Origin: Rhodospirillales bacterium
Lineage (GTDB): Bacteria; Pseudomonadota; Alphaproteobacteria; Kiloniellales; JAKSDN01
Reading direction: 5' to 3'
NCBI GenBank assembly: GCA_029859805.1
Contig: JAOUCL010000016.1
Location: 1-33,074 of the forward strand
Length of the DNA stretch: 33,074 bases
The notes beneath the pieces are model-generated. The model saw nothing but the letters and a program-made list of their open reading frames with translations, made no database searches and was not told the DNA's origin. Position 1 is the first letter of the stretch. Each line of letters begins with the position of its first letter. A program made the translations under genes and the position numbers. This document shows positions 7,397 to 32,335 of the stretch, piece by piece.

Positions 7397-7770
7397 GACG
7401 TGTCCGCCCCTTTGCCATTCCCGCACAGCGCCAGGAATTCAGCCATCTCGAAGGGCTTGTACAGCACGCCGGCGGCACCGTTGTTCAGCGCGGTACGCAG
7501 CAGCTGCTCGACGCTGTAGGCGGTCATCATCACCACCTTGGCATCGGGCTTGAGCTTGAGGATCTCCAGCAGGCATTCGACGCCGTTCATTCCCGGCATG
7601 CGCACGTCCATGAAGGCGATGTCGTAGTTGCGCTCCTGGAACTTGGCGATCGCCTCGGACCCCGAAGACGCGAGGTCGGCCTCGTAGCCCCGTATCTCCA
7701 CGAGGTCGGCAATGCTCTCGGCCATGTCGTGGTCGTCGTCGACGATCAGCATTTTCTTTGGATCGGTCAT
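7393..7770 (-). CDS. Single-domain response regulator (receiver only)
   Basis: A 125-residue receiver protein without an output domain. The acidic residues are at Asp11-13 and the phosphoacceptor is Asp55 (FMDVRMPGMNG); the conserved Thr (MMTAYS) and Lys (LYKPF) are present. Such proteins shuttle phosphate or act by protein contact, as CheY and DivK do. Its start overlaps the stop of the upstream kinase and its stop overlaps the start of the downstream hybrid, both as ATGA. This argues for a fixed ratio and a shared pathway: membrane kinase, receiver, receiver-kinase. Confidence 0.94.
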   Translation of the reverse strand: MTDPKKMLIVDDDHDMAESIADLVEIRGYEADLASSGSEAIAKFQERNYDIAFMDVRMPGMNGVECLLEILKLKPDAKVVMMTAYSVEQLLRTALNNGAAGVLYKPFEMAEFLALCGNGKGADTS

Positions 7771-9314
7771 GCCGCCTCCTCCTCAGCCTGATGACGGGGC
7801 AGCTGCAGGGTAATGCGGGCGCCGCCCCCGCCGTTTCGGCCAATGTCGATTTCGCCGCCGTGCTGTTCGACGATCTGCTTGACCATGGGCAAGCCCAGGC
7901 CGACGCCGTCGGGCTTGGTGGTGAAGAGAGGCTCGAAGATCTTCGACATAAGGTCGGGCGGGATTCCGGTGCCGGTATCGTCGAACGAGATTTCCACCCG
8001 CTCTCCCAGGATTCGCGTCGTAACCGTCAGGCGATGCGCCGAATCGCCGCCCGGGGCGTCCTGGTTCCCGGCCATGGCCTGACAGGCATTGTCGAAGAGA
8101 TTGACGACGACCCGGCGGAAGCGGTCGGCGTCCAGAGGCACCGCCATGCCGTCGGCCGACAGATCACAGCGGAGCGTAATTCCCTCGGGCAGCGTCAATT
8201 CGTCGAGAACCGCCTTGAGCCAGGAGTCGATGGCCGTGGGTGCCAATTGGAGGTCCCGCACGCGCGTGTGGTCCAGCAGGTCGTCGATGATGCTCTCGCA
8301 GCGCCGAAGGCTGCGGTCGATCCGCTCCAAGGGGCGCTTGAGGTTCAGCTCCGCCTGCTCGGCCAGCACGGCAACTGCCGCGAGCGAATTCCGGATCGTT
8401 CCCAAGGGGTTCCTCAGGTCGTGGCCGACGGAGCCGATCAGCTGTCCCAGGGTCGCCAGGCGCTGTTTGCGGCTCAGGTCCTCCCGCGTTTCGCGCAGCT
8501 GGACCGAGCCGTCGGCGACCCGCTGCTCCAAGTCGTCGTTCAGGTCGCGCAGGGCCTCCTCGGCCCGCACGCGCTCCCGGATTTCCTCTCCGAGCTCTCG
8601 GTTCTTCTCCGCCATCGCCGCCTGGCTTTCCAGGATCTGGCGGTGCTGCTGGCTTATGGTCCTGCTGGCGCGCAAGACGATCAGAAGCAGGAACAGGTAT
8701 ATGAGCCCGAACAGTCCGAAGATCGCGAATCCGGCTCCGATAAACGACCTGCCCAAGTGGTGCGTGAGGGCGGTCACGTTGTCGTAGATTTCGACGATTG
8801 CCTCGACGTCGCCGCCTTCTCCGAAGATGGGTACGTAGCTCGAGAGGATGTCGGCGTCCGACACCGGATGACCAAGGGCGCCGATGTCGTCTCGGCGGGT
8901 CAGCTCGGAAGCCGTCCTGCCCGACAAGGCCGAGATCACTCCGGCCGAGCGGCTGTAGTCGGTTCCGATCTGGCTCTCCTGGGTCGAGAACAACACCATA
9001 CCTTCCTGGTTTATGATCTTGACCTTGAACACCGTACGGCCATCGATCCGCTCCCCGACGATCTGCCGAAGCCGAGCGATCATGGAGCCGAACGCCGGCC
9101 CCTCGCCGCTCGAAGTCCCGGTCGAGCTCAGATAGGGTCCGAGAACGGGCCGAACGTCCGTCCACAGCGACTGTGCCATCGCGACGTTGGAAACCTCGCC
9201 GTGTTCCACCACGTGCTCGAGAACCGTGTGGCGATAGAGCATGACGATCAGGACGGTTGCCCCCAGCAGCGCGACGGCGCTGGCAATCGAGAAGTATCTG
9301 AGCAGCGGAAACAC
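7767..9314 (-). CDS. Membrane sensor histidine kinase with extracytoplasmic domain
   Basis: A protein of about 515 residues. TM1 (about 6-28) and TM2 (about 190-215) enclose a periplasmic sensor of about 160 residues, probably of the CACHE type (KVKIINQEGMVLFST, IFGEGGDVEAIVEIYDNV). A coiled coil follows, then HisKA with His298 (GHDLRNPLG) and HATPase (VVNLFDNACQAM, DDTGTGIP, GVGLGLPMV). I chose the GTG at 9314, which has GAGG 6 nt upstream and lies 25 nt after the previous stop; a start at 9389 would overlap the preceding gene and add a basic tail. The kinase core is clearly related to those of the genes at 9340 and 18147. The ligand is unknown. Confidence 0.9.
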   Translation of the reverse strand: MFPLLRYFSIASAVALLGATVLIVMLYRHTVLEHVVEHGEVSNVAMAQSLWTDVRPVLGPYLSSTGTSSGEGPAFGSMIARLRQIVGERIDGRTVFKVKIINQEGMVLFSTQESQIGTDYSRSAGVISALSGRTASELTRRDDIGALGHPVSDADILSSYVPIFGEGGDVEAIVEIYDNVTALTHHLGRSFIGAGFAIFGLFGLIYLFLLLIVLRASRTISQQHRQILESQAAMAEKNRELGEEIRERVRAEEALRDLNDDLEQRVADGSVQLRETREDLSRKQRLATLGQLIGSVGHDLRNPLGTIRNSLAAVAVLAEQAELNLKRPLERIDRSLRRCESIIDDLLDHTRVRDLQLAPTAIDSWLKAVLDELTLPEGITLRCDLSADGMAVPLDADRFRRVVVNLFDNACQAMAGNQDAPGGDSAHRLTVTTRILGERVEISFDDTGTGIPPDLMSKIFEPLFTTKPDGVGLGLPMVKQIVEQHGGEIDIGRNGGGGARITLQLPRHQAEEEAA

Positions 9315-9339
9315 GTTTGGCCTCGATCCGCCTTCGGCC

Positions 9340-11085
9340 TTACGCCGCGGCCTGTTGCGTGCCGCAGAGCGGCAGCCAGAGGAGCACACGCGTGCCCTGC
9401 CCCGGCTCGCTCGTGATCTCGATGCCCCCGCCGTGCAGCTCCATGATCCGCTTTGCCGTCGGCAGGCCGACGCCCACGCCGAAGCCCCTGGTGCTGAACA
9501 GCGGCTCGAAGATCTTGGGCAGCACCTCCGGCGGGATGCCGGGGCCCTCGTCGCTCACCGAGATCTCCAGCCGGCCCCCGGCCAACCGGGTTTCGATCCG
9601 GACCGCCTTGGCGACATCCTCGTCGCCCGAGGCCTCGGCCTCGGTGATCGCTTGGCAGGCGTTATCGACCAGCTTGTCGATCACACACTTGATCTGCTCG
9701 GTGTCCACGAGCGCCTCCGCGCCGGGCGCATCCAGAGTACGGAAAATGGCGATCCCCTCGGGTGCGTCCTGCTCGTCGAGCCTTTTCGCGATCCAGTCGT
9801 CGATGGCGATGGCCGCCGTGTCCAGCTCGCGCTGCGCGGCGAAGTCCAGCAGGTCGCGGATGATACCGTCGCAGCGCTGGATGTTGCGGTCGACCCGCTC
9901 CAGCGCCCGCTCGACGTCCAAGCCCTTGCCGCGGGTGCTTTCGGCGACGGCGAAGACCGAGTTGCGCATCGCGCCCAGCGGGTTGCGCAGCTCGTGGCTC
10001 ACCGTCGCGGTGATCTTACCGAGGACCGCCAGTCCCTCCGTCTCGAGCAGCTCGTCGAGCATGCCGTCGAACTCCTTTGCCAGAACGCCGATCTCGTCGC
10101 TGCGGTCCAGGGCCAGGCGCCGGCTGCGGTCTTTCGTCTTTGCGATGGAAAGCACCTTCTGCGTGAGGTTGGACAGGGGACCGATGACCACGCCCCGCAG
10201 CAGCAGCCACATGGCGATCATGTCGACCAGCCCCACCATGACCATGAAGAGCAGGGCGTAGTTGATGGTCTCCCACCCGATCGCGGTGATCTTCCTGGGC
10301 GTGTCCGCCCTGAGCAACAGGGCCGGGGCGCCAGCGGGGTCGCGTAGCAGCGTGTAACCCGAACGTATATTATCGTCCAATCCGCTGACGAGCGCGTCTC
10401 CTCCGGCCTCCAGCGAGACGACCGCCTCCTGCTCCATCGACGGGAGCGGGCTGCCGTCCAGCGGCCAGGCCTGGAAGTCCACGTGGGTCTGCTCGCGCAG
10501 CCGCGCTAACTCCGCGTCGTTGAAGAACCGGCCCATGATGAAGGTGCCCCGGCTCGGTCCTTCCACGTCACTGGTCAGGATGGCCCTCGAAGCGAAGTAG
10601 ATCGGCCCCAGAGTGGTGTTCATAAAGCCCGTATGCAGGCTTTCCGTGTCCGCATGCTGAAGCACGGTATGTGTCGGAGAAAGGTTGTTGAGCGGAAAGT
10701 CGTCGGCTGGCAGCGAATTGCCCGTTTCCAGGTCGAAGAGCCCATACCAGAGGATCGCGCCGGCCGAATCGAAGATGTACAGGAAGTTCAGATTGATGGT
10801 TGCAAGAGAATCGAAATAGAGGTTGTCCTCCTCATAGGCCGGTTTCTCGCCGCCGGCGTATTCGTAGGTGTCGTCCCAATGCCCCCAGTCGGCGGTAAAC
10901 GCCGCGAGAGATCGAAACTCGCCCTGAAAGGCATCCGTGACGCGATTGAGATTCTGCTCGGCGGCTTCCTCCTCCAACGATACGAAGCTGGGGAAGACGA
11001 GGTTCTGCAGGACCCCGAAATTCAAGGCCACGGAAAAGGTCAGGACACCGGCCAGCACCAACAAGGTCTTGCTTCCAAGTTTCAT
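9340..11085 (-). CDS. CHASE4-domain sensor histidine kinase
   Basis: A protein of about 581 residues. TM1 is at about 5-27. A CHASE4-like extracytoplasmic domain (about 40-230) has its hallmark tryptophan/aspartate block (TADWGHWDDTYEY); TM2 lies at about 273-298, followed by a HAMP-like linker. HisKA carries His364 (SHELRNPLGAMRNS) and HATPase ends the protein (DKLVDNACQAI, DEGPGIP, GVGVGLPTAKR). The ATG at 11085 has GGGA at a 9-nt distance; the ATG at 11094 sits too close to it. CHASE4 ligands are largely unknown. The gene heads the minus-strand signalling cluster, 25 nt before the next kinase, after a long leader. Confidence 0.92.
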   Translation of the reverse strand: MKLGSKTLLVLAGVLTFSVALNFGVLQNLVFPSFVSLEEEAAEQNLNRVTDAFQGEFRSLAAFTADWGHWDDTYEYAGGEKPAYEEDNLYFDSLATINLNFLYIFDSAGAILWYGLFDLETGNSLPADDFPLNNLSPTHTVLQHADTESLHTGFMNTTLGPIYFASRAILTSDVEGPSRGTFIMGRFFNDAELARLREQTHVDFQAWPLDGSPLPSMEQEAVVSLEAGGDALVSGLDDNIRSGYTLLRDPAGAPALLLRADTPRKITAIGWETINYALLFMVMVGLVDMIAMWLLLRGVVIGPLSNLTQKVLSIAKTKDRSRRLALDRSDEIGVLAKEFDGMLDELLETEGLAVLGKITATVSHELRNPLGAMRNSVFAVAESTRGKGLDVERALERVDRNIQRCDGIIRDLLDFAAQRELDTAAIAIDDWIAKRLDEQDAPEGIAIFRTLDAPGAEALVDTEQIKCVIDKLVDNACQAITEAEASGDEDVAKAVRIETRLAGGRLEISVSDEGPGIPPEVLPKIFEPLFSTRGFGVGVGLPTAKRIMELHGGGIEITSEPGQGTRVLLWLPLCGTQQAAA

Positions 11086-11169
11086 GCTCTGCATTCCCTA
11101 AACAAATCCGCACACAAGCCGAACAGGATTCCGGTCACGGCCGTGCGCCATGGACGACACGATTGATGG

Positions 11170-11190
11170 AAAAAGCCCTCGACCTGGGCT
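11170..11190 (-). terminator. Weak terminator-like hairpin in the CHASE4 kinase leader
   Basis: On the minus strand AGCCC, a 7-nt loop and GGGCT are followed directly by TTTT. The stem is only 5 bp, so this is weak. It lies between the AT-rich promoter candidate and the start codon about 85 nt further on, where it could act as an attenuator; that is inference. Confidence 0.25.
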
Positions 11191-11345
11191 CTCTCCCAAC
11201 GGTTTGCTCGCGCAGGCGCCACGGCCGGGCACCGGCAGCGTTCGCCGCTGGGGTCCAATTATCCCGTGATGTAGTTAATAAGATGTAAGAGAAAAATACT
11301 AGTTCATAAACAAAGTGCTAAGATATTGCGCTGGGCTGAACGGCC

Positions 11346-11361
11346 CGATTCAGTTGAATCG
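11346..11361. repeat. 16-bp palindrome CGATTCA-GT-TGAATCG
   Basis: Two perfect 7-nt arms flank a 2-nt centre. An outer CGGC/GCCG pair at 11341-11344 and 11361-11364 can extend it as a bulged RNA hairpin. It lies 54 nt after the EnvZ-like kinase stop, next to the AT-rich region. It could be a protein-binding site or part of a transcript end; no T-run follows on the minus strand. Confidence 0.6.
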
Positions 11362-11414
11362 CCGCTGTGGCGTTCACGATCGGCAGGTGGCGCCGGCGAA
11401 TTTCCCGGGTCCGG

Positions 11415-12785
11415 CTAGACCGGCAGCCACAACCGGGCGCGCAGGCCGCCGCCGGGGGCGTCCTCGAGGGCGATGTCGCCGCCGTGGCCGCGCACGATAT
11501 CGCGGGCGATGGCCAGGCCCAGCCCGGTGCCGCCGGTGTCCGGGCTGCGCGAGCGGTCGAGCCGGTGGAACGGCTTGAACGCGTCCTCGCGCTCCGCTTC
11601 GGGAATGCCGGGCCCGTCGTCGTCGATCATGACCTCGACGATGTTCTTGCGCCGGCCGGCGCTGACCATGACGTGCTCGGCGTGGCCTTGGGCATTGCCG
11701 ACCAGGTTGGCCAGGCAGCGGCGCATGGCCTCGGGCCTGAGCGGCAGGATCAACGTCTGCTCCACGTGCAGGTCGACGCTGCCGCCCTTCTCGCGGGTCA
11801 TCTGGGCCACGATGTCGCGCAGCAGCTCCCCCAGGTTCGCCCGCAGCGGCTGTTCGGCCCCCTCGCCCCGGGCAAAGGCCAGGTAGCCCTCGACCATTTT
11901 CTCCATCTCCGCGACGTCCGAGGCCAGGTTGCCGACCTCCGGGCTTTCGCCCAGCAGGGCCAGCTGTAGCTTCATGCGGGTCAGCGGCGTGCGCAGGTCG
12001 TGACTGACCCCGGCCAGCATCTCGGTGCGTTGTCCGATCTGCCGCTTGATGCGCGAGCGCATCTGCAGGAAGGCCGCGGCGGCCAGGCGCACCTCGGTTG
12101 CCCCCTCGGGCCTGAAGTCCGGCACGTCGCGCCCCTTGCCGAAGCTGTCGGCGGCCCGGGCCAGGCGCCGGATTGGCCGCACCTGGTTGCGCATGAAGAT
12201 CGTCGCCACGCCGAACAAGACGATAGAGCTGCCGACCATCCACATGATGAAGATGTAGGTGGTTGAGCTGAACAATCGCTGGCGCGGAACCCGGACCGCG
12301 AGGACGCCGACCGGCAGCTGGACATCGATCCGGACCATCTCGTCCGGCGCATCGGTGTCGATCACGAAGGGGTAGGGCAGGCGTTCCCGCAGGGCCTTGG
12401 TCAGCTTTCGATCCAGCACGCCCCAGCCGGGGGGCGCCGGATCGGCCTGCAGCCTGGCATCGTCGCGAACGGCGATGTCGAGCCACAGGCTGCGCCTGGC
12501 CAGGTCCAGCGCCGCCGCGCGGCTCTTGGCATCCGGTTCCGGCCCCATGATCCGGATCACCGCGGACACGTCTCCGGCGATGCCCTGGGCCAGCCGCTTG
12601 GTGATGGTGTCGTAGTGGCGGTCGTAGAAGACCCAGGTGGCGATCACCTGGACCAGGACCAGAGGGGAAACGATGATCAGCAGCGAGCGTCCCAGGAGGG
12701 TTCTCGGCAGGAACCGATTCATGGTCCGCTTGACCCGCTTGATCCGCGGACGCTTGCGCGGCGTCTGGGCCGTGGTCACCGCCAT
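11415..12785 (-). CDS. EnvZ-like sensor histidine kinase
   Basis: A 456-residue membrane kinase. A very basic N-tail precedes TM1 (about 32-54). The periplasmic loop is about 120 residues, TM2 is at about 175-198, then come HAMP, HisKA with His262 (SHDLRTPLTRMKLQL) and HATPase (NLVGNAQGHA, DDDGPGIP, GTGLGLAI). DLRTPLTRMK is typical of the EnvZ/RstB branch. It starts 13 nt after the OmpR-type regulator, which is surely its partner. The same MarR / OmpR-type / EnvZ-type series occurs beside ilvE in other Rhodospirillales as I recall it; the signal is not known from sequence. An alternative start at Met22 is possible. Confidence 0.93.
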   Translation of the reverse strand: MAVTTAQTPRKRPRIKRVKRTMNRFLPRTLLGRSLLIIVSPLVLVQVIATWVFYDRHYDTITKRLAQGIAGDVSAVIRIMGPEPDAKSRAAALDLARRSLWLDIAVRDDARLQADPAPPGWGVLDRKLTKALRERLPYPFVIDTDAPDEMVRIDVQLPVGVLAVRVPRQRLFSSTTYIFIMWMVGSSIVLFGVATIFMRNQVRPIRRLARAADSFGKGRDVPDFRPEGATEVRLAAAAFLQMRSRIKRQIGQRTEMLAGVSHDLRTPLTRMKLQLALLGESPEVGNLASDVAEMEKMVEGYLAFARGEGAEQPLRANLGELLRDIVAQMTREKGGSVDLHVEQTLILPLRPEAMRRCLANLVGNAQGHAEHVMVSAGRRKNIVEVMIDDDGPGIPEAEREDAFKPFHRLDRSRSPDTGGTGLGLAIARDIVRGHGGDIALEDAPGGGLRARLWLPV

Positions 12786-12798
12786 TCGCGTTTATCCC

Positions 12799-13485
12799 TC
12801 AATCGGGCATGAGAACATAACCGGTGCCGCGCACCGTTTGCAGATAACGCGGGAACTTCGGGTTGGCCTCTATCTTACGGCGCAAGCGGGTCATTTGCAC
12901 GTCGATGGTTCGCGCGTTGCCGATGATCGGATTCTCGGCGGCCAGGTCGTCGCGCGACACGGGAACGCCGGGTTGTCGCGCCAGGGCTTTCAACAAGGAG
13001 ACCTCGGCGGTGGTCAGGCGTATGAACTCCTCGCCCCGGCGCAACTCGTCGCGCGACAGGTCGAAGTGGTAGCCGCCGAAAAAAATCTCGCTCAGCTGCG
13101 GCGGCACGGGCTGGCGCATGCGGCGCAGGATCGCGTCGATACGCAGGATCAGCTCGCGCGGCTCGAAGGGCTTGGTCAGATAATCGTCGGCGCCGCTCGA
13201 CAGGCCGGCGATGCGGTCGTTGGTCTCGCCCATGGCGCTCAGCAACAGGACCGGCACGTCGCTGGATTCGCGCAGCCACTGGGTCAGGTCCAGTCCGGTC
13301 TCGCCCGGCATCATGATGTCGAGCACCAGAAGATCGAAGTGGAAGGCCGCCAGCTGTTCGCGGGCGGCGCCCGCGTTCCGGGCGGTCGTGACCCGAAACC
13401 CCTGTTCGACCAGGTACCGGCGGAGTAGGTCGCGCAGGCGCGAATCGTCGTCGACCACCAGGATATGCGGCGCTTCGTCGGTCAT
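12799..13485 (-). CDS. OmpR-family response regulator (PetR-like)
   Basis: A 228-residue two-domain regulator. The receiver has Asp12-14, phosphoacceptor Asp56 (LVLDIMMPGETG), LLLSA and KPF. The C-terminal winged helix (about 135-226) shows LTTAEVSLLKALARQPG, SRDDL, RTIDVQMTRLRRKIE and the wing VRGTGYVL. It is expected to bind DNA as a dimer when phosphorylated by the kinase encoded just downstream. With the MarR-type gene upstream it matches petP-petR of Rhodobacter capsulatus, where petR is needed for normal cytochrome bc1 formation. Whether that role holds here is inference. Confidence 0.94.
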   Translation of the reverse strand: MTDEAPHILVVDDDSRLRDLLRRYLVEQGFRVTTARNAGAAREQLAAFHFDLLVLDIMMPGETGLDLTQWLRESSDVPVLLLSAMGETNDRIAGLSSGADDYLTKPFEPRELILRIDAILRRMRQPVPPQLSEIFFGGYHFDLSRDELRRGEEFIRLTTAEVSLLKALARQPGVPVSRDDLAAENPIIGNARTIDVQMTRLRRKIEANPKFPRYLQTVRGTGYVLMPD

Positions 13486-18146: not shown

Positions 18147-21100
18147 TTGAACACTGCGAAACGGATATTCGGGCGCCTCGGGATACTGGACAGCCCCTCG
18201 TCCGCCCTCAAGCGCGCCGTCGGGGCCGTACTCTTGATGCTTGGGACGGTAGTGCCCGCCTTGGCTCAGAACGCGGTCAATCCCAAGGTCGACGAGCTGG
18301 TCGCCGCCATTCCTGGCCATTTCCCGCCCCAGTACGTGCTCGACGATGACGGAGAGCTGACCGGCTTTGCTCTGGATGTCGCCGAGCAGGTCGGGGCGTT
18401 GGCCGACTTGAGGTTCCGGTATCTTGTCGAAGAGGACTGGGTGGCGGCCTTCGACGCCGTGCAATCCGGCCGGGCCGACATCCTGATCAACAACGGAATC
18501 ACCGAGGAACGCAAGCTCCTCTTCGATTTCACCGAACCCGTGGAAACGTTCCGTGTTTCCCTTTTCGTCCGCGAGGATACCCAGACGATCGAGGGCTGGG
18601 ACGACTTGACCGGGCGAAAGGTGGCCGTGGGCAAGCTCCATGTCGGCGCCTACATGCTGGCGGACATGGGTGGCATCGATCTGGTGCTGACCGACGACGT
18701 TCCCGAAACCCTGTTCGCACTGCTTTCCGGGCAGGCCGACGCGATGGTCTATGCCGAGCCCGTGGCCTGGAAGGTGGCGCGGGAGATGGGGGTAGACCAT
18801 CGACTGAGGGTCGTCGACACGCCGCTCGTCGAGATCAAGCGGGCCATGTCGATACCCAAGGGCAACCCGGAACTTCTGGCCCGCCTCGACCGTGCGATCG
18901 AGGCCTTCGTCGGCAGCCCGAAATACCGCGAGGTCTATGCGAAGTGGTACGGCCGCCCCGAGCCGTTCTGGAGCGCCGCCCGGGTAATGTGGATTATGGG
19001 CGCGGTCTTTGCCGTGTCTCTCGCGACGATGGTCGGCTGGCGCCAGTACTCGGTGCTCAAACTCAACCGCGACCTGCGGCAAAGCGAGGCGGGGCTGGCC
19101 GAGGCGCAGCGCCTCGCCCATGTCGGCAACTGGCGCTGGTCGATCGAACGCAACGAGCTCGTTTCCTGCTCGGAGGAATATGCCCGTATTTATGGGGTGG
19201 CACCCGACGAGATCCACGCCCTCATGAAGCAGCAGATGGAACGGGTGGTCCATCCGGAGGACCGGGATCGCGTCGTCGAGGCCTACAGAGGCGCTGACGA
19301 AGAGGGGCTCGGCTTCGAGATCGACTACCGAATCGTGCGCCCGGACGGCCAGGTGCGCCATGTCCTGGAAATCGGCGAAGCGGTTTCGAATACCCTCGGC
19401 CAAGCGGTCGAACAGGTCGGGACGATCCAGGACATCACCGAGCGCAAGCGGGCGGAAGAGGCGCTGCGGGAAAGCCTGGCCCACCTTCGCCATGCCCAGA
19501 AGATCGCCAAGCTGGACTACTGGGTCTGGGACACGAAGGAAAACAGGATCACCGTGCCCGGCGGACAGTCGAGCGTCATCGGTGCTTCGTCCGACGAGCT
19601 CCGCGGCCTGTCGGACGAGGTCTGTGTCGAGCGCTACGTCCACGCGGACGACCGCCAGCGGGTGCTGGAAGCCTATGGCCCGCCCTCGGCGAGAAACCCG
19701 GCCATAGATGTCGAATACAGGCTTGTCCGGCCCGATGGCGAGGTTCGCATCGTCCACGAAGTCGGCGAATCGGTGCTCGGCGAGAACGGCGAGATCGTCT
19801 CGCAGTTCGGCACTTTCCAGGACGTCACGGAACAGAGAGCGGCGGACGAGCGGTTCCGCCAGTATTTCGATCTTCCGCTTGTCGGTTCGGCGATCTATGC
19901 GCCGGACAAGAAATGGATCCGGGTCAACGACAGGCTCTGTGAGCTCTTCGGCTACAGTCGTGAAGAGCTACTTGAGCAAACTTGGGTCGACCTCACGCAC
20001 CCGGACGATTTCGCCGAGAATATCCGGCTGTTCGACGAGGCGACCGCGCGCGCGCGCGATGGCTATACCATGGACAAGCGGTTTCTCCGGAAGGACGGCG
20101 AGGTCCTGTATGGCAGCATTTCCGTGCAGTGTGTGCGTCGGCCGAACGGTGATCCCAACTATTTCATCTTGTTGGTTCAAGACATCACCGAACGCAAGCG
20201 GGCGGAGGAGGCGCTGAGGGAGAGCCTGACCTATCTTCGGCACGCCCAGAGGATCGCCAAGCTCGACCACTGGATTTGGGACGCGAAGGCGAACGCGCTG
20301 GCCACTCCGGCCGGCACCCCGTCGGTGATCAGCGACAAGACAGAAGATTTCTTCGGCCTGTCCGACGAGGAATATGTCGAGCGGTTCGTTCATCCCGAAG
20401 ACCGGGAGCGGGTCCTGGAGGCCTATGGTCCGGTCTCGGCAAAGAACACGGCAGTGGATGTCGAATACAGAATCGTCCGACCCGATGGTGAGGTTCGTTT
20501 CGTTCACGAGGTCGGCGAACCGGTTTTCGATCATGACGGCGAGTTGGCCAGGCAATTTGGTACTTTGCAGGACATCACAGACCGCAAGCGGATTGAAGAG
20601 ACGCTACAGGAGCAATTGTCCTACCTTCGGCAAGCGCAGAAGGCCGCCAAGCTGGACAATTGGGTTTGGGACGCGAGAGACAACAAGATCACCTTGCCTG
20701 CCGGGGGTGGGGCGGTTCTGGGCACTTCACCTGAAGAGGTGTTTGGCCTCTCGGATGAGGAATATGTCGAGCGTTTCGTTCATCCGGAAGACCGGGAGCG
20801 TGTGCTGGAAGCCTATGGCCCGCCCTCGGCGAAGGCACCGGCCGTGGATGTCGAATACCGGATCGTCACTCCGGAAGGCGAGGTTCGTACCGTTTGGGAG
20901 ATGGGCGAGCCGGTTTTCGACGAGACTGGCGAGTTGATCTGCCAAGTCGGAACATTGCAGGACATCACCGATCGCAAGCGGGCGCAGGAGGCGCTGCGCA
21001 AGAGCGAAGCGAGCCTGGCCAACGCGCAGCGCATTGCGCATCTGGGCAACTGGGAATGGGACGCGAAGAGCGACGATCTGTTCTGGTCGGCCGAGACCTA

Positions 21101-22943
21101 CCGCATCTTCGGCCTCGAGCCGCGGGAGTTCAAGAAGCCCGTGGTGGGCTTCCTGGACTTGGTGCATTCCGGCGACCGTGAACGGGTTCGCCAAGCCTGG
21201 CGCCGCGCGTTGGAAGAGCGAATCCCCTACGACATCGTTCACCGGGTGGTCCGTGCGGACGGGGCCGTGCGATTCGTCCATCAGCAGTCCGAGGCCACCT
21301 ACGATGATGACGGCGGGCCGGTCAGCGTGGCCGGCACGTTCCAGGACATCACCGAGAGCAAACGGGCCGAGGAGGCGCTCCGGGACAGCGAAGAGCGCTT
21401 CCGCGATTTTGCGGAGACGGCGTCCGACTGGTTCTGGGAGATGGACGAGAGCCTGCGCTTCACCTACCTTTCGGAGCGCTCCGAGGAGGTCATGGGCGTG
21501 CCGATCAAGGAGGTGATCGGCCTGACGCGCAAGGAACTCTACGACCGCCATGTGACCGCGTCCGAGAAAAATGATCGCGAGAAATGGCGAGCCCACTACG
21601 ATCTAATCAATGATCGACAGGCCTACCGCAATCTCGAGGTGACCTGGTGCTATCCGGACGGATCGGAACGGACCTTCGCCCACAGCGGTAAGCCGGTCTT
21701 CGACGAGGCGGGCGCATTCCAGGGCTACCGGGGAACCGGGGTCGAAATAACGGACCGGAAGAAAGCCGAAGCCGCGCTGCGCCACAGCGAGGAACGCTTG
21801 CGGGGGCTGTTCGAGCAGGGCGCGGTCGGCATGGCCAACGCGGCGCCCGACGGCCGAATCCTCCGGGTCAATAATGCCTACTGCGATTTCACGGGCTACG
21901 CCGAATCCAAGTTGATCGGCAAGCGCTTGGACTTGGTCATCCATCCGGACGATCTGCGAGAGGCTATCGCACATCGGCAGTCGGTGCTTGACGGTAAGTC
22001 GGTGGACGCGATGCACGAGCGGCGCTACCGACACAAGTCCGGCGAGGAGCGCTGGGGCCTCGCCGGGGTGGCTCCATTGCGCGATCCGGATGGCGCGGTG
22101 GAGGGCTATATCGTTCAGGTGCAGGACATTACCGAGCGCAAGCGGATTGAAGGTCAAATCCGCAAGTTGAACGAGGAACTCGAGCAGCGGGTCGAGGCGC
22201 GCACGGCCGAGCTGAGCGCGGCCCAGGAGGAGCTCGTGCGCAAGGAGCGGCTCGCCGCCCTCGGGCAGTTGACCGGGACGGTGAGCCACGAGCTGCGCAA
22301 CCCCCTGGGGGCGATGCGCACCTCGCTCGCGGCGATCAGGAAACTGGCGCGCGACGGCGACCCAATGCTCAAGCGGTCTGTCGAGATCGTCGATCGCAGC
22401 GTCACCCGCTGCGACAACATCATCGGCGACCTGCTCGACTACTCACGGATCCGGAACCTGGCGCTGGAGCCCACGGCCTTGGACGGCTGGCTCGAGCGGC
22501 TGCTCGACGAGTACCAGCCGCCGCTGGGCATCAGGCTGCACTCGGACCTCGATGCGGGGGCGGAACTCGCCCTGGACCGGGATCGCTTGCGCCAGGTGGT
22601 GATCAACCTGCTCGACAACGCCTGCCAGGCCATGACGCCGGAGGAGGGGCGCGCGGCCGGGAACGGAGAACGCCTCCTGACCGTCGCGACGCGTGTAGCC
22701 GACGCGCGCGTGGAGCTGTCGGTGAGCGACACCGGACCGGGCATCTCGCCGGAGGAGGTCGACAAGGTATTCGAGCCGCTCTACAGCACCAAGGCCTTCG
22801 GTGTTGGGCTCGGGCTGCCGCTCGTCCGGCAGATCATTGAGCAGCACGACGGCGGGATCGAGGTCGACCGCACGGCGGCGCGCGGTACGCGCATGGTTCT
22901 GTGGCTGCCGCTGGAGGTCGAGGCCCGGAGGGCCGCTTTATGA
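18147..22943 (+). CDS. Giant sensor kinase: solute-binding domain, membrane span, eight PAS, HisKA-HATPase
   Basis: A 1598-residue protein. A signal/anchor (about 22-41, ending ALAQ) precedes a family-3 solute-binding domain (about 45-270) outside the membrane, with a single span at about 279-300. Eight PAS units with PAC ends (QDITERKR and variants) start near residues 321, 451, 569, 701, 831, 961, 1083 and 1214. A coiled coil follows (about 1340-1370), then HisKA with His1381 (SHELRNPLGAMR) and HATPase (INLLDNACQAM, DTGPGISP, GVGLGLPLV). PAS 2, 4 and 5 are near-duplicates. The start is TTG at 18147 with GAGAG about 9 nt upstream, so it is somewhat unsure. The ligand is unknown; SBP-3 domains usually bind amino acids. 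No receiver is in the protein; the next gene supplies one. Confidence 0.92.
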   Translation: MNTAKRIFGRLGILDSPSSALKRAVGAVLLMLGTVVPALAQNAVNPKVDELVAAIPGHFPPQYVLDDDGELTGFALDVAEQVGALADLRFRYLVEEDWVAAFDAVQSGRADILINNGITEERKLLFDFTEPVETFRVSLFVREDTQTIEGWDDLTGRKVAVGKLHVGAYMLADMGGIDLVLTDDVPETLFALLSGQADAMVYAEPVAWKVAREMGVDHRLRVVDTPLVEIKRAMSIPKGNPELLARLDRAIEAFVGSPKYREVYAKWYGRPEPFWSAARVMWIMGAVFAVSLATMVGWRQYSVLKLNRDLRQSEAGLAEAQRLAHVGNWRWSIERNELVSCSEEYARIYGVAPDEIHALMKQQMERVVHPEDRDRVVEAYRGADEEGLGFEIDYRIVRPDGQVRHVLEIGEAVSNTLGQAVEQVGTIQDITERKRAEEALRESLAHLRHAQKIAKLDYWVWDTKENRITVPGGQSSVIGASSDELRGLSDEVCVERYVHADDRQRVLEAYGPPSARNPAIDVEYRLVRPDGEVRIVHEVGESVLGENGEIVSQFGTFQDVTEQRAADERFRQYFDLPLVGSAIYAPDKKWIRVNDRLCELFGYSREELLEQTWVDLTHPDDFAENIRLFDEATARARDGYTMDKRFLRKDGEVLYGSISVQCVRRPNGDPNYFILLVQDITERKRAEEALRESLTYLRHAQRIAKLDHWIWDAKANALATPAGTPSVISDKTEDFFGLSDEEYVERFVHPEDRERVLEAYGPVSAKNTAVDVEYRIVRPDGEVRFVHEVGEPVFDHDGELARQFGTLQDITDRKRIEETLQEQLSYLRQAQKAAKLDNWVWDARDNKITLPAGGGAVLGTSPEEVFGLSDEEYVERFVHPEDRERVLEAYGPPSAKAPAVDVEYRIVTPEGEVRTVWEMGEPVFDETGELICQVGTLQDITDRKRAQEALRKSEASLANAQRIAHLGNWEWDAKSDDLFWSAETYRIFGLEPREFKKPVVGFLDLVHSGDRERVRQAWRRALEERIPYDIVHRVVRADGAVRFVHQQSEATYDDDGGPVSVAGTFQDITESKRAEEALRDSEERFRDFAETASDWFWEMDESLRFTYLSERSEEVMGVPIKEVIGLTRKELYDRHVTASEKNDREKWRAHYDLINDRQAYRNLEVTWCYPDGSERTFAHSGKPVFDEAGAFQGYRGTGVEITDRKKAEAALRHSEERLRGLFEQGAVGMANAAPDGRILRVNNAYCDFTGYAESKLIGKRLDLVIHPDDLREAIAHRQSVLDGKSVDAMHERRYRHKSGEERWGLAGVAPLRDPDGAVEGYIVQVQDITERKRIEGQIRKLNEELEQRVEARTAELSAAQEELVRKERLAALGQLTGTVSHELRNPLGAMRTSLAAIRKLARDGDPMLKRSVEIVDRSVTRCDNIIGDLLDYSRIRNLALEPTALDGWLERLLDEYQPPLGIRLHSDLDAGAELALDRDRLRQVVINLLDNACQAMTPEEGRAAGNGERLLTVATRVADARVELSVSDTGPGISPEEVDKVFEPLYSTKAFGVGLGLPLVRQIIEQHDGGIEVDRTAARGTRMVLWLPLEVEARRAAL
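19612..19700 (+). repeat. Intragenic PAS repeat, copy in PAS 2
   Basis: The stretch tcggacgagg...gccctcggc in PAS 2 aligns with stretches in PAS 4 (from 20361) and PAS 5 (from 20751). Protein shared: VERxVHxxDRxRVLEAYGPxSA. It is the most divergent of the three. Confidence 0.7.
20251..21030 (+). repeat. Tandem duplication of a 390-bp PAS unit (PAS 4 and 5)
   Basis: Units start near 20251 and 20641, an exact 130-codon period. The segment at 20369-20430 is almost the same as that at 20759-20820; encoded SDEEYVERFVHPEDRERV is identical in both. Differences are mostly in third codon positions, which points to a fairly recent duplication or to gene conversion. Confidence 0.85.
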
Positions 22944-23024
22944 GATTGCTCGAGGGCAGCTCGGCGACCTACGCCGTAGGCGAACTGATGCCTGGTTTGA
23001 CGACAGCGCGAATGGAGGTGCCAA

Positions 23025-24224
23025 GTGGGAACTGCCGTGATAGCCGATGAGGTGAGCCGGGCGGAGGCCGGCGCCAAGCGTCGCGTCCTGATCGTCGATG
23101 ACGACCGGGACTTCGCCGAGAGCCTGCACAATTATCTGCTGCTCGAGGGCTATGACGTCCGAATGGCGTTCAGCGCGGAGCAGGCCCGGCGGGCCGTCGA
23201 GGATTTCGACGCGCAGGTTGCGATCCTGGATTACCGGCTCGGTCCCACCGTCGGCGTGGACCTTGTTGCCCCCCTCAAACGGCGGCGGCCGGGGATCGTC
23301 TGCATACTGGCAACGGCCTTTGGCGACATGGATTCGGTCGTCAATGCGCTGCGCAACGGCATCTACGACTATTTCGGCAAGCCGTTGCACACGGAAGAGC
23401 TGTTGCTGACCCTGGATCGCTGCTTCGACTTGCTGCGGCTCGAGCAGGAAAAGCGGTCGGCGGAAGAGGCTCTGCGCGAGGCGGGGAAAATGGCCGCCGT
23501 GGCGCAGATCGCCGGCGGCGTCGCGCACCATCTCAACAACCTGCTGATGATCATGCTGGGCAACGTAGAGCGGCTGAAGGTGCGGATGGAGGATGCGCCG
23601 GATCAGGTGAAGCTGGCCGACGGCCTGATGCGTGCGATCGAGTGCGCCGCGGACATCAACCACAGTCTGGTGACCTTCACCCGCCGCCAGGTGCTGCGTG
23701 CCAAGACGGTCGACGTGAACGACGTGCTGACGGGACTGCAGGACGACCTACGGCAAGCCCTGGGCGAGCCGGTGCAGACCCAGGTGGTGACGTCGCGCGA
23801 CCTGTGGCAGGTTTCGGTGGACGCCGCGCAGCTCGAATTGGCGCTCCTAAACATTGCGCGCAACGCCGGCGACGCCATGCCGGAGGGCGGAAGCCTGATC
23901 ATCACGGCCGCCAACGTCGACGTGCCCGGCGCCGCGGGAAATCTGGAGCGCGACCTGTCGCCCGGCCAATATGTCGTGCTGACGCTCAGCGATACCGGTA
24001 CCGGCATGGCGCCGGAGGTGGCGGAGCGGGCCTTCGAGCCGTTCTTTTCGGGACAGAGCCTGGCCGAGAAGACCGGGCTCGGGCTCAGCGTCGTCTACGG
24101 CTTCGCCAAGCAGTCGGGCGGCACCGTCACCCTCGAGAGCCTGGAGGGCTGCGGCGCCACGGTACGGCTCTATCTGCCCCGGGCGCAAACGGCCGATCCC
24201 GCGGCCGAGGTGCCCACGGCGTAA
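23025..24224 (+). CDS. Hybrid response regulator-histidine kinase (receiver first), NtrB-like core
   Basis: A 399-residue soluble protein. Its N-terminal receiver (about 20-140) has DDDRDF, phosphoacceptor Asp69 (AILDYRL), ATAFGD and KPL. The kinase part carries the motif GGVAHHLNNLL with phospho-His168, and an HATPase (LNIARNAGDAM, DTGTGMAPE, GLGLSVVYG). The usual form is GGVAHDFNNLL; here Asp-Phe is His-Leu. The GTG at 23025 has GGAGG 6 nt before it, 81 nt after the giant kinase stop, so the two are probably one operon. Its receiver is likely the target of the giant kinase. It shares layout and receiver sequence (AESL, YDY..KPLH) with the minus-strand hybrid at 6131-7396. No DNA-binding output is present. 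Confidence 0.92.
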   Translation: MGTAVIADEVSRAEAGAKRRVLIVDDDRDFAESLHNYLLLEGYDVRMAFSAEQARRAVEDFDAQVAILDYRLGPTVGVDLVAPLKRRRPGIVCILATAFGDMDSVVNALRNGIYDYFGKPLHTEELLLTLDRCFDLLRLEQEKRSAEEALREAGKMAAVAQIAGGVAHHLNNLLMIMLGNVERLKVRMEDAPDQVKLADGLMRAIECAADINHSLVTFTRRQVLRAKTVDVNDVLTGLQDDLRQALGEPVQTQVVTSRDLWQVSVDAAQLELALLNIARNAGDAMPEGGSLIITAANVDVPGAAGNLERDLSPGQYVVLTLSDTGTGMAPEVAERAFEPFFSGQSLAEKTGLGLSVVYGFAKQSGGTVTLESLEGCGATVRLYLPRAQTADPAAEVPTA

Positions 24225-29124: not shown

Positions 29125-29257
29125 GGCCCGCAGGATGCAGAAGCCCGGCCTCCGGCACAAGGGGCAGAACGGAGCCCGCGCGGGCGGCGGGATCGACCGG
29201 GGCCGGCTTTTGTGGAAAGATCCGGTCCCTTCGCCGCGGCGCCGCCGAGGAGACGAA

Positions 29258-30304
29258 ATGCCGATCCCACGCATCGATCTTTACAGCGACACCCAGACCC
29301 GGCCGTCGCCCGCGATGCGCCGGGCGATCGCCGCGGCCGAGGTCGGCGACGAGCAGCGCGGTGAGGATCCGACGGTCAACCGCCTGCAGGAGATGGTTGC
29401 CGAGCTGCTGGGCAAGGAGCGCGCGCTTTTCCTGCCGTCCGGAACCATGTGCAACGAGATCGCCTACCGGGTCTGGGGCCGTCCCGGCGAGGAGATCATT
29501 CTCGACCGGACGGCGCACGCGCTGCACTACGAGACCGGCGCGCCGGCCGCGTTGTCGGGCCTCATGACGCGGCCGCTGGAGGGCCTGCGCGGCGTGTTCG
29601 ACGCCGAGATGGTTGAGGCCGCGGTGCGGCCGCGGGACAGCCGGCACGCACCCCGCTCCGCCTTGGTCTCGATCGAGCAGACCAGCAATCTGGGTGGCGG
29701 CCGGGTCTGGCCCGTGACGCGGATCGAAGAGGTGGCTGAAGCGGCACGGCGTCACGGCCTGCCGGTCCATATGGACGGCGCCCGCCTGCTGAACGCCGTG
29801 GTGGCGAGCGGTGTTCCGGCGCGTGATCACGCGGCGTCCTGCGACAGCGTCTGGATCGACCTCTCCAAGGGGCTCGGCTGTCCGGTCGGGGCCGTGCTGG
29901 CCGGCGGCTCGGACTTCGTCGAGGAGGCCTTTCGCTGCAAGCACCTGTTCGGCGGCGCCATGCGCCAGGCGGGGATCATCGCCGCGGCCGGCGTCTATGC
30001 GCTGGACAATAACGTCGAACGGCTGGCCGAGGACCATGCCCATGCCAGGCAGCTCGGCGAGGGGCTGGCGGAGATTTCCGGCCTTCGGATTGACCCGGCG
30101 GAGATCGAGACCAACATGGTCTACTTCGAGGTCGACCCGGCGCGCATGACGGCGCCGGATTTCTCCGCGAGGCTGCTGGCGCAGCATGGAGTTAGAATCG
30201 GTGCCGTCGGCCCGCGGCAGATGCGCGCCGTCACCCACTTGGACGTGGCCGCCCCGGACATCCCCGCGGCGCTCCGCGCCATGGCGGCCGTTCTGGCGGC
30301 GTAA
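29258..30304 (+). CDS. ltaE: Low-specificity L-threonine aldolase
   Basis: A 348-residue fold-type I PLP enzyme. It cleaves L-threonine or allo-threonine to glycine and acetaldehyde. The start IDLYSDTQTRPSPAMRRA and GDEQRGEDPTVNRLQE match the family, as do LPSGTMCNEIA, HMDGARLLNA and the PLP lysine Lys204 (DLSKGLGCPVGAVL). The C-terminal part ends TNMVYFEVD and VTHLDV. The ATG at 29258 has AGGAG 5 nt upstream, and the longer frame from 29105 is discarded. It is divergent from the pteridine-reductase-like gene over a 133-nt gap and seems monocistronic. Confidence 0.94.
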   Translation: MPIPRIDLYSDTQTRPSPAMRRAIAAAEVGDEQRGEDPTVNRLQEMVAELLGKERALFLPSGTMCNEIAYRVWGRPGEEIILDRTAHALHYETGAPAALSGLMTRPLEGLRGVFDAEMVEAAVRPRDSRHAPRSALVSIEQTSNLGGGRVWPVTRIEEVAEAARRHGLPVHMDGARLLNAVVASGVPARDHAASCDSVWIDLSKGLGCPVGAVLAGGSDFVEEAFRCKHLFGGAMRQAGIIAAAGVYALDNNVERLAEDHAHARQLGEGLAEISGLRIDPAEIETNMVYFEVDPARMTAPDFSARLLAQHGVRIGAVGPRQMRAVTHLDVAAPDIPAALRAMAAVLAA

Positions 30305-30352
30305 CACCAAAGGTCACTGATAATTCCGAGGGGCGTGTCGGACTGCGCCCCT

Positions 30353-30655
30353 TCAAACCGGATCGGCTTCTGCCGGGCAGTTGAATTCGGATCGCTCGAC
30401 CATCCGCGAGACCATCCGATCGAGGCGCTTGCCTTCGGCGATCACCGCTTCGAGAAACCGGGCGCGTTCCACCTCCGGCATGTCTGGATAGTCGCGCAGG
30501 ATCTCGGAGCTGGCGAGGATCGACGTGAGCGCGGACTGCAGTTCGAGAACAGCGTCCGGAACCGGGGGATCGGCCGCCGCTCCGCCCGGGGTCCGTCCGG
30601 CCTCGGTCTTGCCCTGGGAAGGCCGGTCGTAGCTTCCGTCGACGCTAATCGGCAT
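30353..30655 (-). CDS. Small protein resembling a histidine-kinase dimerisation domain without its histidine
   Basis: A 100-residue protein. The ATG at 30655 has a strong GGAGG 6 nt upstream; a longer frame to 30727 lacks support. After a polar, Pro/Gly-rich N-tail (about 1-35), the rest reads like a HisKA helical hairpin: LELQSALTSILASSEILRDY and ERARFLEAVIAEGKRLDRMV. It aligns with the kinase consensus HELRTPLTSI..SEIL....RFL..I..E..RL, but Leu replaces the phospho-His and Ala the Pro. No ATPase domain follows and none is encoded nearby. It might dimerise with kinases as a decoy or adaptor, or only resemble one. It converges with ltaE, 48 nt away. A dyad and a TATACT hexamer lie upstream. 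Confidence 0.75.
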   Translation of the reverse strand: MPISVDGSYDRPSQGKTEAGRTPGGAAADPPVPDAVLELQSALTSILASSEILRDYPDMPEVERARFLEAVIAEGKRLDRMVSRMVERSEFNCPAEADPV

Positions 30656-30744
30656 GGTAAACCTCCGTCGGTACGCACGTCTCCCTTCCCCCTCGAGCCG
30701 CAGCGCGCGCCCTGGTGAGGCACCCAACGGTCTTCTAAAAACCT

Positions 30745-30750
30745 AGTATA
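30745..30750 (-). promoter_or_regulatory. -10-like TATACT upstream of the histidine-less protein
   Basis: On the minus strand TATACT is 90 nt upstream of the start codon. There is no good -35 hexamer at 17 nt. The dyad at 30774-30788 would be centred about 43 nt upstream of the transcription start, a usual position for an activator site. Confidence 0.4.
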
Positions 30751-30773
30751 TCCGGTGCAGGAATCAAGGATTG

Positions 30774-30788
30774 TTGTGCGATGCACAA
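30774..30788. promoter_or_regulatory. Perfect dyad TTGTGC-GAT-GCACAA
   Basis: The 6-nt arms are exact reverse complements with a 3-nt centre. Its TTGTGC-N3-GCA plan is shared with the two boxes of the phasin promoter, so the same regulator may bind. It lies in the AT-rich region upstream of the minus-strand histidine-less protein. Confidence 0.6.
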
Positions 30789-30940
30789 AGATAGAGCGAC
30801 AGGATTGCAGCAAGGTGTTACCAGCAATGCGATATCACATTCATCAAAATATTACAAATACTTACACAACAGAAAGCAGAGACGCCAGAGATCGCCCGAG
30901 CACATCTACCTTGGAGAAGATCCGATGAAGAGGCTTGCGA

Positions 30941-30956
30941 TTGTGCATTGCAATAT
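30941..30956 (+). promoter_or_regulatory. Operator-like box TTGTGCATTGCAATAT
   Basis: It matches phasin box 2 (5051-5066) at 14 of 16 positions. Overlapping its right part is the 10-bp palindrome gcaatattgc (30950-30959). No clear promoter is next to it, so its target is not known. Confidence 0.45.
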
Positions 30957-31041
30957 TGCCTCGTCTTGCACGTTCCAGTGGGAATGTGACTCAGCTAGAG
31001 CTTCGCGACGACGGCCTACGACTACCCCTGTCCCTTGCCGG

Positions 31042-32010
31042 TCAGGCGCCGGGAATATGACCGTTCTTGAACAGCAGGCCGATGTATAGCGCGTAGGCGA
31101 CGAGGAAGGCCGCGGCCTCGCCGCGGCCGATGCGCCAGCCGGTCACCATGGCGGCGAAGGCGACCACCGTGACCCCGGCCATGAACCAGACGTCGAAGTC
31201 GAGCAGTTCGGGGGTGACCGTGAACGGCGTGGTCAGCGCCAGGGCGGGAATGATCGCCATAATGTTGAAGAGATTGGAGCCCAGGACGTTGCCCAGCGCG
31301 ACCTCGGGGTGGCGCCGGAAGCTGGCGACCACCGCGGTGGCCAATTCGGGCAGCGAGGTGCCGACGGCGACCAGGGTCAAACCGATGACCGCCTCCGACA
31401 CGCCCGCGGCGCGCGCCAGATCGACCGCGCCGTCGACCAGCAGCTTCGAGCCGACGACGAGCACGCCGACGCCGCCGACGACGAAGAGCAGCGACACCGG
31501 CATCGAGGCGCAGAGCCGAATGCCCTCGGGCGCCGGCGCGGCTTCGGCCTTGTTGTTCAGCTTGCGGTCGCGCCGGTAGCTGTAGGCGAGGTAGGCGATG
31601 AGCAGGGCCAACATCAGGGTGGCGTCGACCCGGTCGAGGGTGCCGCTCACCGCGAAAACGATGAAAAGCGCGGTGCTGGCGATCATCGCCAGGCCGTCGC
31701 GCAGTACGTTGTGCGGTCGGGTCTCCATCGGATAGAGCAGCGCCGCGACCCCCAGGATCAGCAGGATATTGGCGATGTTGGAGCCGATCACGTTGCCGAC
31801 GCCGATGTCCGGCGCCCCGCGCAGGCCGCTGGCCACCGCGACCACCATCTCCGGCATCGAGGTGGCGGCCGCCACCACGGTCATGCCGATCAGCAGGGAC
31901 GACAGGCCCAGACAGCGCGCCAGGGAGACGGCGCCGCGCAAGAGGATTTCTCCGCCGAACAGCAGCAGCAGCAGGCCGCCGACCACCATGCAAAGGGCCA
32001 GGAAGGTCAC
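31042..32010 (-). CDS. yrbG: Calcium/sodium antiporter (CaCA family, YrbG-like)
   Basis: About 322 residues with ten or so hydrophobic spans. The two inverted alpha-repeats that form the ion path are plain: LLIGMTVVAAATSMPEMVVA with GNVIGSNIANILLILG, and AVIGLTLVAVGTSLPELATA with GNVLGSNLFNIMAII, each with the acidic residue in S-M/L-PE. A loop of about 30 residues rich in charged residues (YRRDRKLNNKAEAAP) divides the halves. I take the GTG at 32010; an upstream in-frame extension to 32235 is low-complexity and not membrane-like, and the ATG at 31989 would cut the first helix. The ion pair (Na/Ca or H/Ca) is inferred from the family. Confidence 0.92.
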   Translation of the reverse strand: MTFLALCMVVGGLLLLLFGGEILLRGAVSLARCLGLSSLLIGMTVVAAATSMPEMVVAVASGLRGAPDIGVGNVIGSNIANILLILGVAALLYPMETRPHNVLRDGLAMIASTALFIVFAVSGTLDRVDATLMLALLIAYLAYSYRRDRKLNNKAEAAPAPEGIRLCASMPVSLLFVVGGVGVLVVGSKLLVDGAVDLARAAGVSEAVIGLTLVAVGTSLPELATAVVASFRRHPEVALGNVLGSNLFNIMAIIPALALTTPFTVTPELLDFDVWFMAGVTVVAFAAMVTGWRIGRGEAAAFLVAYALYIGLLFKNGHIPGA

Positions 32011-32335
32011 GCCGGATGTCTTTCCACCGGGACGTTCGTCCCGGGCGGGGGCACCCCTGACGCGCGTCGCGGCGGTGCGCGTAGGCCCTCCACGGGCATG
32101 CGGCAGCCCGGCGCTGGTTTCTGGTTTCCGTCTTGCTTCACGCCGGCTTGTCCCGCTGCCGTCAACTTCGCTCTGTCCGGCCCCGGACGCCCCGGATTCC
32201 GTGCCGGTTCGCGGCCGCGCAAGGGCGTCCGCCACTCGGCACTAGATGCGGCCTCGGCGCCGCTACTTCAATGGGTCCGGCCGATTTTGCGGCAGAGTCC
32301 CGCCGTGAGTATTCCGGCCGGGCCGGGCCTGGGGC
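32011..32335. other. Intergenic region between msrB and the exchanger
   Basis: I see no supported gene in these 325 bases. A 7-bp hairpin (32027-32033 with 32038-32044, loop gttc) lies 17 nt upstream of the exchanger GTG start on its coding strand, and could affect translation. No promoter hexamers or T-run terminator were recognised. Confidence 0.4.

Follow-up and report, generated by a model that had tools for sequence, protein, structure and literature searches.

The DHp (HisKA) hairpin is known as a part of kinases, and in DivL of Caulobacter the HisKA domain carries Tyr in place of His. That one kinase can block another through this domain is known from RetS of Pseudomonas aeruginosa, which inhibits GacS by forming a DHp-DHp heterodimer that replaces the GacS DHp homodimer (PMC12148439), and HrrS, with which ChrS heterodimerises, mediates the action of a ChrS variant whose CA domain carries a frameshift (PMC9491836). 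Small proteins, Sda and KipI, are in turn known to repress the autophosphorylation of sporulation kinases (PMC12189002).

Here, we analysed a 33,074-nucleotide stretch of DNA (hereafter the window) that encodes a 100-residue protein with a DHp hairpin and no catalytic domain, which we call the lone hairpin. Set against the systems above, RetS and ChrS are membrane kinases (RetS a large hybrid one), unlike the small soluble lone hairpin, and the likeness to RetS lies in the mixed DHp bundle proposed below, which by analogy would block autophosphorylation. DivL also has a non-His residue in a DHp fold, and its structure 4q20 is among the Foldseek matches of the lone hairpin, but DivL is a multi-domain protein and the solved construct extends well past the DHp. 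Sda and KipI are small too and, as accessory proteins, repress the autophosphorylation of kinases, whereas the lone hairpin is itself a DHp homologue. Finally, SLC5/STAC sensor kinases (CrbS, RpuS, and CbrA type) resemble it in DHp hairpin sequence, in loop length, and in a TSI..SEIL.D.PD motif, but the lone hairpin comes without their transporter, STAC, ATPase domain, His, and H-box Pro. Within a limited set of open-access literature we found no description of a stand-alone DHp or HisKA-only protein; the domain and the proposed mode of action thus have precedents, while a free-standing, His-less DHp under selection is undescribed in the open-access literature searched.

A His-less hairpin and its predicted fold

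The HisKA/DHp hairpin occupies residues 32-91 of the protein. Pfam HisKA (PF00512) matches residues 38-89 with 26.8 bits (E=5e-6) against a curated cut-off of 26.9, the six-frame genome search scored the same domain at 26.9 bits and flagged it above the cut-off, and no other Pfam family matches the protein with an E-value of 10 or below. In an alignment of 58 relatives, Leu37 fills the phospho-histidine position (also Leu in the orthologue described below), Ala42 replaces the conserved H-box Pro, and Leu47 the near-invariant Arg at H+10; Leu43, Thr44, Glu51, Ile52, Leu53, Asp55, Phe67, Arg77, and Leu78 match the consensus. The protein contains no His at all, and so has no phosphorylatable residue of the HPt or Spo0B phosphotransferase type; nor does it carry the HATPase_c domain of a sensor histidine kinase, or the SLC5 transporter and kinase core of a CrbS-type protein. 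No HATPase match was found downstream of the gene, where the stop of the neighboring LtaE gene, only 48 bp away, leaves no space for an ATPase domain. The original prediction, made from the letters of the window, of a stand-alone protein that follows the HisKA consensus with Leu for His and without an ATPase domain is thus borne out.

AlphaFold2, run with the 58-relative alignment, returned the DHp-type two-helix hairpin that had been anticipated, with pLDDT of 97-98 across most of it, while 30 residues at the N-terminus and 10 at the C-terminus were of low confidence and, going by this model, are probably disordered. The first 27 PDB matches of the predicted structure in Foldseek were all kinase DHp structures (HK853, YycG, SrrB, DivL, and EnvZ; probability 0.99-1.00), with weak E-values (from 0.04 upwards), which a fold of two helices would lead one to expect.

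Gene, flanks, and selection

The gene (Table 1) starts with ATG, and the strong ribosome binding site claimed for it was found as GGAGG-TTTACC-ATG. Its only orthologue in a scan of named genomes, which places the gene in two genomes among those searched, belongs to an uncultured Kiloniellales MAG of the same genus (G001); the two proteins are 89% identical, the flanks are colinear, and the GGAGG is kept. Between the two genomes, residues 41-93 differ by six bases, all third-position and synonymous (dN=0, dS=0.17), whereas residues 1-32 are drifting (dN=0.14, dS=0.23), and the codons of residues 41-93 are 96% identical versus 78% for the 386 bases upstream. This substitution pattern marks the frame as a genuine gene that selection conserves, and purifying selection is seen to act on the hairpin only. 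An antisense frame at 30335-30718 was ruled out, 19 of its 23 changed codons being nonsynonymous.

Table 1 Coordinates in the window of the lone-hairpin gene and associated features
Feature	Position	Strand	Basis or remark
Threonine-aldolase-like flank LtaE (Beta_elim_lyase)	29252..30304	(+)	convergent with the lone-hairpin gene
Segment of ~696 bp, in own genome (G000) and G001, absent from G002	30342..31037		flanked by the stops of LtaE and CaxA, which converge
Coding sequence of the lone hairpin (100 aa, DHp only)	30353..30655	(-)	HisKA match; orthologue dN=0 over residues 41-93
Helix 2, residues 61-91	30383..30475	(-)	AlphaFold2; pLDDT 97-98 for residues 61-80, 83 for residues 81-90
Helix 1, residues 32-55	30491..30562	(-)	AlphaFold2; pLDDT ~98 for residues 41-60, 82 for residues 31-40
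Leu37 codon CTC, phospho-histidine position	30545..30547	(-)	alignment; codon read from sequence
Ribosome binding site GGAGG	30662..30666	(-)	6 nt 5' of ATG
Perfect dyad TTGTGC-GAT-GCACAA, 15 bp	30774..30788	(.)	candidate operator, 118 bp ahead of the ATG
CaxA-like Na/Ca exchanger flank	31042..32235	(-)	upstream of the lone-hairpin gene, same strand

The segment that holds the gene is missing from a close relative (G002), in which 50 bp separate the stops of LtaE and CaxA between flanks 94-95% identical to ours at the DNA level (CaxA 98% identical). We favor a gain of the segment over its loss in that relative, since the gene is absent from all other members of the family. A degraded kinase was ruled out, because the site is empty in the close relative and offers neither space nor sequence for a catalytic domain; the concern that homologues might prove to be frameshifted remnants of full-length kinases did not hold, the gene being a discrete one within the segment. 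Upstream of the gene, positions 30720-30960 are AT-rich (43-46% GC versus ~68% in the surroundings), which fits acquired DNA. A phage or plasmid origin was rejected: the protein had no PHROG match and no phage record match, and its plasmid matches all stayed below 50% identity and covered no more than 59% of its length.

The upstream dyad that had been pointed out is present and conserved in the orthologue; the 5.36-Mb genome holds a single copy (0 copies for a reversed-pattern control), G001 likewise has one in the corresponding position, and G002 has none. The dyad may make expression of the lone hairpin conditional. An imperfect second copy lies at 30941-30955, in the AT-rich stretch. A sigma-70 promoter was looked for upstream and none was found; a conserved upstream block is present, to which no promoter class could be assigned.

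Kin of the hairpin within the genome and across the class

Among the 67 HisKA matches of the genome, four have no HATPase close downstream: the lone hairpin, a protein on contig C28, a ScfR regulator on contig C429, and an 825-aa protein on contig C443. When the lone hairpin was compared by phmmer with the HisKA loci of its own genome, the C28 protein ranked first (46.5 bits), followed by an SLC5/STAC kinase on C429 (31.8) and the ScfR regulator (18.1), with all other kinases at 14.3 bits or less. Window positions 6131-13485 and 18252-24224 form a dense two-component cluster with six HisKA matches, receivers, and a 1563-aa ORF with a kinase core at its end. The original prediction had stressed the many kinases close by; these six matches do stand on the same contig, but none resembles the lone hairpin (at most 0.6 bits), and they were rejected as its sequence kin. 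As implied partners they fare no better, given 32 bits for the SLC5/STAC-type kinase elsewhere.

The C28 protein is a second lone hairpin (162 aa, 52% identical) with Ser in the His position and an N-terminal stretch that is RSP_7527-like by a weak match below the cut-off; it occurs in our genome and G001, with a counterpart in G002. The C429 kinase, unlinked to the lone-hairpin gene, is the only SLC5/STAC-type kinase of the genome, and its DHp is 41% identical to the lone hairpin over 54 residues with the same helix-loop-helix length. Pfam did not detect the transporter part in this kinase but did so in its homologue in genome G007 (E=5e-7), and we take the kinase to be CrbS/RpuS-like on that match and on what is generally known about such kinases. 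At the HK853 helix-1 specificity positions (A268, A271, and T275, taken from PDB titles and mapped by alignment), the lone hairpin reads S, A, I and the CrbS-like kinase S, S, I, while the helix-2 specificity positions read A, A versus I, K. The loop-proximal half is slightly better conserved between the two (13/30 versus 9/29 elsewhere). A domain tree of 66 columns does not resolve the order of origin of lone hairpins and their relatives, and we therefore claim no orthology between lone hairpins. The ScfR gene and two genes for single-domain receivers adjoin the C429 kinase; the same cluster encodes a PAS and DnaQ-type exonuclease protein (L122:1594-3654(-)) with a degenerate DHp-like stretch, TEEWRAPIANL, in which His is changed to Glu.

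Beyond this genome, another alphaproteobacterial family (f105) has ~10 genomes with DHp-only proteins of roughly 64-92 aa, reading like LEHELRTPLTAIRAIAEIL, which contain little besides the hairpin and are 35-50% identical to the lone hairpin from His+1 on. Differing from it, they all keep the His, as well as the Pro, and several adjoin ymdB instead of standing between LtaE and CaxA: the gene is convergent with ymdB in five genomes checked (ymdB Pfam-confirmed in one). At this conserved locus, found in at least five genomes and in several f105 genera (L168, L170, L172, L173, and L175; 80-92 aa), a gene resembling 5-formyltetrahydrofolate cyclo-ligase lies nearby. C28-like proteins with His and without a catalytic domain occur in G005 and G058. 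Two lone DHp proteins (L123:11740-12228(+) and L124:16449-16850(+)) have an N-terminus that weakly matches the NCBIfam family RSP_7527; in Rhodobacter, the sRNA UdsC derives from the 3' end of the mRNA for this small protein. Genomes G005, G045, and G049 encode HisKA-like proteins, again without a catalytic domain, with Glu for His and a further C-terminal part (L038:4468-5445(+), L039:4074-4925(-), and L040:3-563(-)), which matches no Pfam family and is STAS-like by eye only. In ScfR regulators (L122:9174-10736(-), L003, L012, L008, L011, L040, and L121), several of them near SLC5/STAC kinases, a HisKA-like hairpin lies between HTH and M78; the His of this hairpin does not vary among seven sequences, and AlphaFold2 places helices there at 130-155 and 161-189 with moderate confidence. 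These features point to a transcription factor that may be phosphorylated or may pair with a kinase.

Short stand-alone DHp frames were found in only a handful of 387 surveyed genomes of the class, so that such proteins are rare but recurrent. The His is not always absent from homologues, as had been asked; most stand-alone relatives keep it, and by this sequence comparison its loss is derived and not a rule of the family.

Possible modes of action

Lacking both the His and an ATPase domain, the lone hairpin cannot phosphorylate or be phosphorylated in the usual way. Selection keeps the hairpin, a structure known to serve in pairing and in the docking of receivers. We put forward, tentatively and at somewhat less than an even chance, that it serves the CrbS-like, acetate-type kinase as a dimerisation partner without catalytic activity. 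Its origin would lie in the SLC5/STAC (CrbS-like) lineage of kinases, directly or by way of the small DHp-only family; two lone hairpins, or one together with the CrbS-like DHp, would form a four-helix bundle. As one side of a mixed bundle would lack both the His and the ATPase domain, trans-autophosphorylation would be blocked and output to the partner receivers lowered. The earlier suggestion of mixed four-helix bundles or kinase blocking is in this sense plausible; that heterodimers form, which protein is the partner, that the effect is inhibitory, and what the physiological role would be are points we infer from pLDDT of 97-98 over residues 41-80, the DHp fold matches, selection confined to the hairpin, the kinship ranking, the equal helix-loop-helix length, the nearly matching helix-1 specificity residues, and the precedents of RetS with GacS and ChrS with HrrS. 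Counting against it are the membrane-kinase nature of those precedents, a gene unlinked to the CrbS-like kinase and present in two genomes only, a loop-proximal half only slightly better conserved, and the lack of resolution in the domain tree; 41% identity over 54 residues is possibly too low for heterodimers with the CrbS-like DHp.

The loss of both His and H-box Pro from a conserved hairpin would also suit a homodimeric four-helix bundle complete in itself, which has become a scaffold or adaptor for some other partner and no longer contacts any kinase, and ScfR regulators of the order do carry related hairpins within a transcription factor; yet kinship to one particular kinase lineage is still visible and exposed helix-1 positions remain similar, and we regard this as unlikely. 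Those helix-1 positions, together with the two single-domain receivers encoded next to the CrbS-like kinase, would also fit a receiver-binding decoy, which mimics the docking surface of that kinase and sequesters its receivers unphosphorylated. We think this improbable, as the two proteins disagree at the helix-2 specificity positions, Leu47 stands in place of the near-invariant Arg at H+10, and docking requires a dimer, here a putative state. Slightly more improbable still is that the lone hairpin mainly partners the C28 protein in a kinase-free two-hairpin module: the two share the lack of His, the C28 protein is the best match in the genome, and both occur in G000 and G001, but G002 has the C28 counterpart without a lone hairpin, so that the C28 protein does not need it. 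A decaying fragment or spurious frame, for which the occurrence in two genomes, a low codon-usage score (17 for 100 aa), and a Pfam score at the cut-off might speak, is highly improbable given the hairpin's dN of 0 against a dS of 0.17, the conserved GGAGG and dyad, the rejected antisense frame, and a locus with neither a catalytic remnant nor space for one.

For the catalytically dead partner of the CrbS-like kinase, a wider and rather doubtful reading is that free-standing DHp hairpins ("micro-partners") were repeatedly spun off SLC5/STAC kinases in Alphaproteobacteria and regulate them, or exchange phosphate with them, through mixed four-helix bundles, the lone hairpin being a dead, His-less member; such a class would take in lone hairpins, both those that keep the His and those that lack it, as well as ScfR regulators and fusions to other domains. 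If the proposal is true, a hairpin-only gene kept after the loss of its His would be a natural minimal kinase inhibitor, and the surface through which kinases pair would be a regulatory target in its own right, for which the lone hairpin would offer a 100-residue reagent for testing regulation at that surface.
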